This document shows, piece by piece, positions 22,782 to 62,829 of a DNA stretch of 64,000 bases. The position numbers were made by a program, and so were the translations under genes. The notes under the pieces were generated by a model. That model searched no databases. It had not been told where the DNA came from and saw nothing but the letters and a program-made list of their open reading frames with translations. Source of the stretch: Sporichthya polymorpha DSM 43042 (GTDB lineage Bacteria > Actinomycetota > Actinomycetes > Sporichthyales > Sporichthyaceae); contig NZ_KB913029.1 of NCBI RefSeq assembly GCF_000384115.1, forward strand, positions 1-64,000. Direction: 5' to 3'. Every line of letters starts with the position of its first letter. Positions within the stretch are counted from its first letter, which is position 1.

Positions 22782-22905
22782 GCGGGCACCACCGACAGTC
22801 CATTTTCGCCGGGATCGAGAGCGCGGGGCGCGGAGGAGCGGAGGGATCGGAGGAGCGGAATCCGCGGTGCCACAACGCCTCTGACGCCCCATCAACACCA
22901 CGCGA

Positions 22906-22930
22906 CCCCCATTGAAGATGTCATCTCCAA
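22906..22930. repeat. copy of a dispersed palindromic element (GATGTCATC core)
   Basis: The 25-nt sequence here matches, at 23 positions, each arm of the inverted pair inside the regulator gene at 53343-53409. The shared core AGATGTCATCT is itself palindromic. It lies in the non-coding stretch 22768-23053, next to the AAGGGGTG palindromes. Confidence 0.6.
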
Positions 22931-22951
22931 CGGGTTGTGGATAACCCCGAC

Positions 22952-22998
22952 GAAAGGGTGACACCCCATTACTCGGGAGTAAGGGGTGTCACCCTTTC
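22952..22998. repeat. palindromic element of the AGGGTGACACCCCTTACT family (divergent copy)
   Basis: Arms of 23 and 22 nt separated by GG; the left arm carries one extra A. Downstream of the LOG gene (stop 23054) and upstream of the HNH gene, it could end minus-strand LOG transcription. The other three copies lie between convergent genes. Confidence 0.85.
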
Positions 22999-36557: not shown

Positions 36558-36607
36558 AAGAAAGGGTGACACCCCTTACTGCGGAGTAAGGGGTGTCACC
36601 CTTTCTT
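36558..36607. terminator. palindromic element, copy between two convergent operons
   Basis: Perfect 23-nt arms (half-site AGGGTGACACCCCTTACT preceded by AAGAA) around a GCGG loop. A-rich and T-rich flanks on both sides give the form of a bidirectional intrinsic terminator between the gene ending at 36530 and rocD ending at 36663. Confidence 0.85.
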
Positions 36608-39625: not shown

Positions 39626-39669
39626 AAAGGGTGACACCCCTTACTGCGCAGTAAGGGGTGTCACCCTTT
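39626..39669. terminator. palindromic element, loopless 44-bp copy
   Basis: A perfect palindrome of two 22-nt arms (half-site AGGGTGACACCCCTTACT plus GC), continued by TTT to a run of six T on the right and by GATGT/ACATC flanks. It lies between the convergent hydrolase (stop 39597) and Lrp gene (stop 39686). Confidence 0.87.
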
Positions 39670-50365: not shown

Positions 50366-50453
50366 CCGAAAGAAATTCGCCTTGGCGGGAGGCTAACGCC
50401 GGGGCGGGTGAGCCGGGGCCGCAAGCGCTCGGTTCGTGCCAGATTCCGTCGCT

Positions 50454-50493
50454 GTCAGTGATGCTGTCAGCGGCGCTGTCAGTGCCGTGTAAG
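50454..50493 (+). promoter_or_regulatory. direct GTCAG repeats, candidate SARP-type binding site
   Basis: GTCAG at 50454, 50466 and 50478 plus GTAAG at 50489, spaced 12, 12 and 11 bp. The array ends 22 bp before the PIG-L gene start. Direct repeats at about one helical turn are the recognition form of BTAD/SARP regulators. Confidence 0.5.
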
Positions 50494-50515
50494 CCGTTCG
50501 GGTGACGCTACCCCC

Positions 50516-51262
50516 ATGACTCCGGTGAGAACTGCACGCAGCGTGATCAATTTGCCGGCCGCGGTCGCGGACCTCGGCACGATCCTCGGCGTCTGGGCCC
50601 ACCCCGACGACGAGGCGTACCTGTGCGGCGGGATCTACGCGGCCGCCCGCGACGCCGGCTCCCGCGTCGTCTGCGTGACCGCCACCCGCGGCGAGGCCGG
50701 GGGCGACCCGGTGCAGGAGCCGCCGGAGCGCCTCGCGGCCGTCCGCACCGCGGAGATGGCGGCCTCGCTCGCCGTCCTCGGCGTCGTCGAGCACCACTGG
50801 CTGGACCTGCCCGACGGCGGCTGCGCCGACCTCGACCCGGAGCCGCAGATCGCCCGGATCGCGGCGCTGATCACCGCGATCGGGCCGGACACCGTCCTCA
50901 CGTTCGGCCCCGACGGCGAGACCGGGCACGCCGACCACATCGCGGTCTCGACCTGGACGACGGCCGCGTTCCGCCGCGCCGCCGCCCCGGGTGCGCGCCT
51001 GCTCCACACCGCCGTCCCCGCGCGCTGGTGGGCCGAGTTCGGCCACCTCAACGACGAGTTCCCCGCGTTCGAACCCGGGAGCCCGATCGTGGTGCCGGAC
51101 GACTCCCTCGCCCTCGACCTCGTTCTCGACGACGGCCTGCTCGCCCGCAAGGTCGCCGCGCTCCGCGCCCAGACCAGCCAGACCGCCGGCATCGAGGCGG
51201 GCATGGGCCCCGACCTCTACGCCCGCTGGGTCCGCGACGAGTCGTTCGTCGACGCGACCTGA
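50516..51262 (+). CDS. PIG-L family deacetylase
   Basis: A 248-aa relative of MshB. GVWAHPDDEAYLCGGIYAAARDAG gives the metal ligands and catalytic Asp; FGPDGETGHADHIAVSTWT gives the second His. It is shorter than MshB and lacks its substrate-specific insertions, so a different N-acetyl-sugar is likely. The start is ATG 50516. It is convergent with the adjacent regulator and carries a candidate SARP site upstream. Confidence 0.87.
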   Translation: MTPVRTARSVINLPAAVADLGTILGVWAHPDDEAYLCGGIYAAARDAGSRVVCVTATRGEAGGDPVQEPPERLAAVRTAEMAASLAVLGVVEHHWLDLPDGGCADLDPEPQIARIAALITAIGPDTVLTFGPDGETGHADHIAVSTWTTAAFRRAAAPGARLLHTAVPARWWAEFGHLNDEFPAFEPGSPIVVPDDSLALDLVLDDGLLARKVAALRAQTSQTAGIEAGMGPDLYARWVRDESFVDAT

Positions 51263-51269
51263 CCCACCC

Positions 51270-54169
51270 TCACCCGGCCGACTGCGCTCGGGTGAGGTGG
51301 CGGGCCAGGGCGGCGCGGGCGGTGGCGAGGGCACCGGGGCGGGAGAGGTCGGCCCCGGGCGGGAGCGTCCCGGTCGGGGGCGGCAACGGCGGGGCGTCGG
51401 GGTCGCGGTGGGCGGCGGCGCGCAGGATCGCCGCCGGCTCCGGGTCGCCGAGGACGTCGAGGAGGTCGGCGAGATTCCGCAGCGTGACCCACTGGTGCGT
51501 CCAGTTGCCCGCGCGCGCCCAGTACTCGACGACGTCCCGGAAGCCGGCGAGCGCCTCGGCGACCCGCCCCGCTCGGTGAGCGCCGCGAGCCGGCCGACCG
51601 AGGCGATGCCGACGACGAACGTCGCGCCCGCCGCCCGGGCGAGGGCGATCGCCTCGGCGTAGCGCTCCTCGGCGAGGTCGCCGGCCGTCGAGGAGATCTC
51701 GCCCTCGACGTAGAGCGCGAAGGCGCGCAGCGCCGGGTAGTTGGCGCGCTCCAACGTGCGGCGGGTCAGCTCGCGCGCGAGGTCGAGGTCGCCGCCGTAC
51801 AGCGCACCCAGCGCCCCGACCGCGGGTGAGGAGGACGGCCGCGTCGCGTACTTCTCGGCGTCGAGGTCGTAGGCGACCGCGGCGTCCCAGTCCGCCCGGG
51901 TCAGCGCCGCGGAGGACAGCGCGACGAGCAGGAAGCGGCGCGCGTCGCCCGTCCCGCCACCCCGTTCGACGAGCTCGAGCCCGCCTCGGCCGAACCGCTC
52001 GGCGGCAACGTGGTCGCCGCGCATGTAGGCGTCCATCGCGGCACCGGCGTGGACGGCGACCGCGCCCGGGTGGTCGTCGGGGAAGCCCGCGGCGAGCAGC
52101 TCCTCCGCCCAGCCCGTGAGCCGGGTCAGGTCGCGCCAGGACCGGGCGTCCGCCAGGCTCGTCACGATCGCGGCCGCGGCGTCGAGCCGGCCGTGCTCGC
52201 GCGCGAGGGCGAACGCCGCGCGCAGGTTGAGCACCTCGCGGCGCAGCGTCGCGTCGGCCTCCGGTTCGGCCGCGCTGTGGCCCCGCTCGTCGATGTGCGC
52301 CGCGAGGTCGACGGACCACGACACGACCCGCGCCGCGGCGGTGGCGCTCTCGCCGGCCGCGGCGAGGCGGTCGGCGCCGAACGCGCGCAGGGTCTCGAGC
52401 ATCCGGTAGCGGGTGCGGCCGGTCGTGAGGTCGACCTCGAGCATCGATGCGTCGACCAGGTGCGCCAGCGCGGTGGCGGGGTCGCCGGGGACGTCGAGGT
52501 CGGCGGCGAGGCGCTCGGCCGTCGCGAGGTCGACGCCGTCGGCGAACGCGGCGAGGTGCCGGAACAGGCGCTGCTCCCCCTCGGGCAGCAGCGTGTACGA
52601 CCACTGGACGGTGTCGCGCAGCGTGCGATGCCGGGCGTCCGCGCTGGGGCGCCCGTCGCCGAGCAGGTCGAGGGCGCGGTCGAGTCGCTCGTGCAGGTCG
52701 GCGAGGGAGAACGACGCGAGCCGGCCGGCCGCGAGCTCGATCGCGAGCGGCATCCCGTCGAGCCGTCGGACGATGTCGGCCACCACGGGCCGCTCCGCCG
52801 CCGTCGGCGCGAACCCGGGCCGGACACGCGCGGCGCGGTCGCAGAACACGTCGACGCCGGCGTCGTCGGCCAGCGGGCCGACCCGGTGGCGGACCTCGGC
52901 CGACAACCCGATCGGGGACCGGCTGGTCGCGAGCAGGTGCAGGTCCGGGCAGCCCGCGAGCAGCGCCGCCAGCCCGTCGCGGACCGGTTCGATCAGGTGC
53001 TCGCAGTTGTCGACGACCAGCACCGCGGGCCGCGCCGCGAGCACCGCGACGCACGCCGCGAGCAGGTCGGGGTGGTGCCCGCGGACGTCCAGCGCGGTCG
53101 CGAGCGCGGCCGGGATCCCCGCCGCCTCGGTCACCGGGGCGAGGACGACGAACCCCGCGGCCTCGACCCGGTCCGCCACCGCCTGCGCCAGCCGGGTCTT
53201 TCCCACCCCACCCGGCCCGATCAGCGTCACGAGCCGCTCGGTCCGCAGCAGCTCGACGAGCTCCGCGACCTGGTCGTCGCGGCCGACCAGCCGATGCACC
53301 GCCGGCGGGGTCGCGAAGTCCCCCGCCCGGACCCGCGTCCGCCCCCCACTGGAGATGACATCTCCACCGGATCGGGCGGAATCGTTGGAGATGACATCTC
53401 CAGTGGGGGCGAGGGCGCCGGCGGCGATGGAGCGCTCCAGGGCGGCGAGGGCCGGGGAGGGGTCCAGGCCGGTCTCGTCGGCGAGGCGGGCGCGGAAGGT
53501 CCGGGCCGCGTCGAGGGCCGCGGCCGCCTGGCCGGTGCGGGCCTGAGCCTGCATCAGAAGCAGGACCGCGGGTTCCCGCAGCGGGTCGAGCGCGAGCGCG
53601 GCGACAGCCTCGGAGACCAGCCCCTCGAGGCGGTTCGCGGCGAGCGCGGCGGTGATCGAGAGGTCGGACAGGTCGCGCCGCAGGTCCGCGCACGCCAGCG
53701 ACTGGGCGGCGAGCGGCGGGACGTCCCCGAACTCCGCGAGCACCGGACCACGCCACAGCGCGAGCGCCCCGCGGGCGAGGTCGTCGGCCGCGGCGGGGTC
53801 GGTTGCGAGCCGGCGCCGGGCGTCCGCCAGCGCGGCCGCGGCGCGCGACAGGTCCAGGCCGTCGGCGGCGAGCCGGAGCCGGTAGGCGCCGTCGAGCCGT
53901 TCGAGGTTCTCGCCCGCCGCCCCGAGCTGGGCGCGCAGGCGCGAGACGTGGCTGTGCAGGGCCGCCCGTCCGGAGTCCGGGATCTCGTCGGGCCAGAGGG
54001 CGTCGAGCAGGGCGTCGTCGGTGACGGCCCGTCCGTCCACGACCGCGAGCAGCGCGAGTACCGCGCGGCGCTTCGGCCCGCGCACGTCGACCTCGGCGTC
54101 CCCTGCGCCGACTCGCAGGGGCCCCAGGACGTCGACGCGCAACCCCGCGCGCGTGGTCCCGGTCGCCAT
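51270..54169 (-). CDS. AfsR/SARP-like regulator (BTAD + NB-ARC + TPR-like), with apparent frameshift near 51566
   Basis: A large regulator of about 965 aa if one base is restored. The N-terminal winged helix (VDVLGPLRVGAGDAEVDVRGPKRRAVLALL) and BTAD domain end near residue 245. NB-ARC follows, with P-loop TLIGPGGVGKTRLAQAV and AVLVVDNCEHL; helical repeats fill the rest. The frame starting at ATG 54169 leaves homology at LAALTER. The continuation EALAGFRDVVEYWARAGNWTHQWVTLRNLADLLDVLGDPEPAAIL is in another frame down to the stop at 51270. The change lies in a G-run (51566-51570 on the plus strand). Unshifted, the frame runs on to 50393 antisense to the PIG-L gene. A palindromic element interrupts the linker after the BTAD domain. 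Confidence 0.8.
53343..53409. repeat. inverted pair of a dispersed palindromic element inside the regulator gene
   Basis: Two arms of about 24 nt (53343-53366 and 53385-53409) are inverted copies with one mismatch. Each contains TGGAGATGACATCTCCA, which is itself palindromic. The spacer is 18 bp. The reading frame stays open and the insert encodes the linker GDVISNDSARSGGDVIS between the BTAD and NB-ARC domains. A third copy of one arm is at 22906-22930. Confidence 0.7.
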
Positions 54170-54266
54170 GGCGCTCAGCATCCCAGCCCGGACCCCGAGT
54201 TCCGGGCCTCATTTTCGCCCGTCCGGCCCAGTGCCCGCGGCGGACCGACGCCGTGCCGGCCCCGGT

Positions 54267-62779: not shown

Positions 62780-62829
62780 AAGAAAGGGTGACACCCCTTA
62801 CTGCGCAGTAAGGGGTGTCACCCTTTCTT
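62780..62829. terminator. palindromic element, loopless 50-bp copy
   Basis: A perfect palindrome of two 25-nt arms (AAGAAAGGGTGACACC opening) between the convergent FBP gene (stop 62747) and TetR gene (stop 62834). The left flank CCTGTGGAA is shared with the copy at 36558, and the right flank CACATCA with the copy at 39626. Confidence 0.88.

Follow-up and report, generated by a model that had tools for sequence, protein, structure and literature searches.

The window (the whole 64,000-nt stretch of DNA analysed) holds a gene for a SARP-like regulator with Trans_reg_C, BTAD and AAA/NB-ARC domains (50393–54181, minus strand), and within this gene lies an inverted pair of palindromes at 53343–53409. 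The two arms (53343–53369 and 53383–53409) are 27 nt each, 93% complementary and 13 nt apart, and both contain TGGAGATGACATCTCCA. The layout is that of an element dimer, with two exact copies of this core palindrome (53350–53366 and 53386–53402, 36 nt start-to-start) separated by a 19-nt spacer, CCGGATCGGGCGGAATCGT (53367–53385), and with CCCCCAC...GTGGGGG ends. Folded as single-stranded DNA, a 79-nt stretch with the dimer reaches −31.5 kcal/mol (z = −7.8), a value equalled by none of 200 shuffles. The minus-strand reading frame through the pair is open and gives TGDVISNDSARSGGDVISS, encoding GDVIS twice. In the protein, the insert makes up residues 260–278, in the linker between the BTAD domain (residues 109–252) and the AAA/NB-ARC part (from residue 297); an earlier note on this DNA had placed it in frame in the linker between DNA-binding and NB-ARC parts. 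It was missing from all 79 related regulators examined, hence it is not a linker that all orthologues carry. The C-terminal third of the regulator (about 51500) makes sense only in another frame (overlapping ORF 51270–54212), hence the gene looks frameshifted, through sequencing error or decay; the palindrome insert sits in the intact N-terminal part.

A search of this genome (G000; 5.5 Mb, 72.6% G+C) detected 60 exact copies of the 17-mer, with A or T at the centre, so the arm is not found in this gene alone. Base composition predicts 5.6e-5 copies and the reversed pattern was found 0 times, hence a chance origin of the repeats was rejected on copy number. One further copy, with one mismatch in the 17-mer, lies in the window at 22913–22929, upstream of a DUF222/HNH gene and 26 nt away from another palindrome element (22955–22995); the earlier note had pointed out both this recurrence near the HNH gene and its palindromic neighbour. 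The second congener (G001), which shows about 91–92% DNA identity to this genome, possesses 122 copies, double the number. In a sample of 394 genomes from the class, five of them from the host family, the other 392 have 0 copies, among them the third congener (G002) and two sister-genus genomes. An array scan of a named genome collection, from which this or very near genomes are possibly missing, gave no match. Along the chromosome, the region from 1.14 to 2.23 Mb has one site in >1 Mb and that from 2.2 to 4.4 Mb is dense; an even spread is not firmly rejected (circular uniformity, Kuiper p = 0.055).

The element is built from a 17-nt core, TGGAGATG-W-CATCTCCA, which occurs singly (about half of the sites) or in arrays of 2–4 cores spaced 36–38 nt start-to-start, less often 17–18 or 27–30 nt. 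Array spacers of 19–20 nt are weakly conserved and themselves palindromic, with the loose consensus CYGRAAHCGG/CCGDTTYCRG (CYG on the left, GG/CC in the middle, CRG on the right). Flanks such as CCCCAC...GTGGGG or CTGCAC...GTGCAG often lengthen the palindrome, and their sequence is variable. The inverted pair of the earlier note is real, but its unit is the 17-mer with variable, often palindromic flanks rather than an arm of constant 24 nt. Compensatory pairing of the flanks outside the core, followed across single cores, exceeded shuffles weakly and not uniformly and was therefore dropped as proof of a hairpin. Of the six frames in which the core can be read, five are open. Two core pairs enclose longer stretches, of 143 bp (L018, 3966–4125; L numbers denote loci) and 260 bp (L046, 4005–4281), and the latter locus has a single core in the sister species, as if the stretch between the cores had been gained or lost.

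The copies in this genome form 49 site clusters, 33 intergenic and 16 intragenic by gene calls from our own codon-usage model rather than curated annotation. The intergenic clusters lie between codirectional (n = 21), convergent (n = 11) and divergent (n = 1) genes, the last two differing from the background of 38/60 (p = 1e-3), and the median distance to the nearest stop codon is 12.5 nt. The intragenic hosts are diverse and include genes for a glycosyltransferase, FliO-like, AMP-binding and THUMP-like proteins, TilS, a polyketide synthase, a hydantoinase/oxoprolinase, MurJ, ScpB, a molybdopterin/flavodoxin reductase and two MMPL proteins, where the copies encode peptides such as GDDIST, GDVISS and EMSSP. 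With so many unrelated host genes, confinement of the feature to regulator linkers was rejected. The proposed tolerance for insertion in protein linkers is borne out by the in-frame copies, but most copies stand at gene 3′ ends. Array spacing was divisible by three for all seven intragenic core pairs of this genome against 4/20 intergenic ones (p = 3.7e-4), in 8/8 against 3/21 in the second congener (p = 3.8e-5) and in 2/2 against 2/24 in the third (p = 0.018); the first two tests are not independent, some arrays being common to both genomes. In-frame repeats in ScpB, TilS, MurJ and others are examples of mobile-like DNA turned protein sequence.

Palindromes with hairpin potential that sit right behind stop codons and between convergent gene pairs might be transcription terminators which share their sequence by accident. 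This reading appears very improbable, as termination does not need an exact sequence, one third of the sites are intragenic and 0/60 cores are flanked on the left or right by TTTT at a distance of up to 12 nt, compared with 10/15 copies of a second palindrome family. An intrinsic terminator identity for the 17-mer was accordingly rejected, its hairpin lacking a T-run in 60/60 cores. The second family consists of AGGGTGWCACCC...GGGTGWCACCCT inverted pairs 28 nt apart, with the TGWCA centre of the 17-mer and with A- and T-runs, and has >100 matches in this genome and the second congener and 0 in the third. In the window it is found as the terminator-like element at 22955–22995 and, between convergent genes, at 36563–36602, 39628–39667 (with a T-run) and 62785–62824. 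Because of its T-runs and its location mostly between convergent genes, this family looks like a repeated, putative bidirectional terminator.

Many 17-mer sites are common to this genome and the second congener, with arrays of unequal size. The shared arrays have four copies against one at ScpB, L255/L010 and L269/L030, and three against one elsewhere; in the ScpB gene, the second congener has a 12-residue repeat made of four copies, this genome has one copy and the third congener none. Other sites are filled in one species only. The hydantoinase gene has a clean 54-nt insert in the second congener which is absent at the same codons in this genome, an array directly behind the stop codon at L256/L317 is likewise missing here, as are further arrays at L265/L323 and L264/L322, and conversely the TilS array (L021) is present in this genome with other sequence in its place in the second congener. 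These empty and filled sites show recent gains or losses, the direction of which is mostly not readable from pairs. Consistent target-site duplications were not seen at the empty sites, the cleaner of which have ambiguous 2–4 nt repeats (TG, GCGG). The element is dispersed and high in copy number, is gained or lost between sister species and forms arrays that grow or shrink. The earlier suggestion of a small non-autonomous element agrees with the 60 dispersed exact copies and with their absence, in some cases, from the same genes of the sister species.

At shared sites the two genomes differ by 2% in the core, 21% in the spacers, about 18% at the edges and 7% in flanking DNA, sums which omit four loci that were misaligned, poorly aligned or degenerate. 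Divergence in the core is thus ten times lower than in the spacers (Fisher p = 4e-12). Furthermore, intragenic cores retain codons that are rare in this genome (GGA, 4.5% of Gly; GAT, 4.6% of Asp). Some constraint thus keeps the DNA sequence itself from changing, and this near-invariance, even at synonymous positions, would fit just as well with a site that the host requires. The element stands in frame in linkers or no more than about 12 nt from stop codons, with a core far steadier than its surroundings.

The third congener carries a related repeat. GGATGWCATCC, which is the centre of the 17-mer with other arms, has 106 copies there and one each in the other two genomes; its typical form is CAAC[GGATGWCATCC]GCAG, in arrays of period 25–27 behind stop codons. 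It stands at the position of the 17-mer in the genes of L041, L027 and L042, and approximately so in that of L044, where the linker is the same; these same-place genes include those for the hydantoinase and the THUMP-like protein as well as L042. Relatives with the same element and other outer letters indicate a real small repeat element. At first, most positions seemed to be common to this genome and the third congener, but this impression lost ground in a sample with less bias, in which sites of this genome were followed into the third congener wherever a counterpart was found (n = 11) and a site was present in 2/11. Four loci of the third congener (L217, L219, L227, L233) also hold pairs of hairpins, GGGGATGWCATCCC...GGGATGWCATCCC, spaced 59 nt apart, which may be its version of the second palindrome family, and the L219 pair shares its intergenic region with the L036 copies.

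These observations bear on the main rival explanation, in which a dimeric host protein (a nucleoid organiser, occlusion factor or regulator) binds the cores as double-stranded DNA throughout the genome and host selection keeps these sites, with species differing through a change of specificity that the sites followed. Perfectly symmetric cores that keep TGWCA at their centre, the steadiness of the core relative to its spacers, the retained rare codons and the different arms at identical positions in several genes of this genome and the third congener would all fit such sites, and dialects and constancy are what this explanation accounts for. It does not account for the turnover between species at about 92% identity, the 2/11 positional sharing or the twofold copy number in the sister species; moreover, the copies trail stop codons and shun divergent promoters, and their spacing is not fixed (17, 28, 36, 37). 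We regard host-protein sites as possible but unlikely.

RAYT transposases are the usual explanation for REP-like repeats. Classic Rickettsia palindromic elements (RPEs) measure about 150 bp and occur in alphaproteobacteria, and MITEs such as Correia, RUP and ERIC are small elements with inverted ends, dispersed and non-autonomous. REPs are short, high-copy palindromes of species-specific sequence, found between convergent genes and <20 bp downstream of stop codons, with occasional in-frame genic copies, and in REPINs they form dimers around a length-conserved spacer able to pair (PMC3733652, PMC3116915). RPEs are palindromic repeats in frame within many unrelated protein genes (PMC10969869), of which RPE-4 and RPE-6 are classed as REPs (PMC3733652).

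The 17-mer is largely in agreement with the REPs and REPINs of Pseudomonas, E. coli and others in being a short, high-copy and mostly extragenic palindrome (60 copies; 33 of 49 clusters) which forms inverted pairs around a 19–20 nt spacer able to pair, as in the window dimer, which folds with z = −7.8, with about half of the sites single. It differs however in its almost perfectly symmetric core, in the lack of a GTAG/CGTC tag, in tandem arrays of period 36/37 and in its actinobacterial host, a genome without a Y1/RAYT gene. GTAG/CTAC was found in the flanks of 1/60 cores (4.1 expected) and CGTC/GACG in 13 (23.5 expected), and the Y1 transposase profile PF01797 had no match in this genome, with positive results in five known control genomes including E. 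coli. The REP-associated transposase that the earlier note had proposed looking for was hence not found, and membership of the RAYT-linked REPs was rejected on the missing tag and transposase. The likeness to RPEs lies in an in-frame palindrome in unrelated proteins (16 intragenic clusters) that is absent from the related regulators; the unit here is 17 nt (dimers about 54–66 nt) and mostly intergenic. As in MITEs, the element is small, dispersed and non-autonomous with inverted ends, but no known insertion sequence was recognised by its terminal inverted repeats, no regular target-site duplication was seen and no parent insertion sequence was found. The element was not described in the open-licence literature searched, which is a part of the full literature, and is apparently an undescribed type akin to known bacterial palindromic repeats.

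We consider the window element to be probably one copy of a palindromic repeat that is short, non-autonomous and REP/REPIN-like, laid down by a factor other than a Y1 (RAYT) transposase. Such a trans-acting factor would lay down new copies on recognising the core, in either hairpin or duplex form, and insertions would survive where they are least harmful, behind genes or, if the frame is kept, in flexible linkers. Once the recognising factor changes, the arms would drift jointly into a lineage "dialect". More speculatively, and in our judgement rather doubtful, a hitherto unknown recognition system without a REP transposase might operate here, in which an actinobacterial factor reads a TGWCA-centred palindrome with lineage-specific arms, writes or keeps it at gene ends and linkers throughout the genome, and rewrites sites in place when its specificity changes, giving dialects at the same codons. 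A REPIN-like population that thrives without RAYT (60 copies in this genome, 122 in the second congener) implies either that a different enzyme can take on this role or that the host makes use of the sites, and the dialect difference, sometimes at the same codons, offers a direct handle on this choice.

No mobilising enzyme for the 17-mer was identified. DUF222/HNH proteins, of which there are 31 genomic copies, could be imagined to mobilise the element, since a core lies within about 1.5 kb of 10/30 genes examined (about 1.7 expected), and seven of these ten fall in a single subgroup of lower score, in which the core is upstream. Most site clusters, however, have no DUF222 gene nearby, and the core-adjacent genes are paralogues with a common duplicated upstream region, hence the association may reflect one event; we consider this explanation quite improbable. 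The upstream block shared by the DUF222/HNH paralogues at L012, L032, L048 and 22840–22990 of the window contains a core, a DnaA-box-like TTATCCACA and a copy of the second family.
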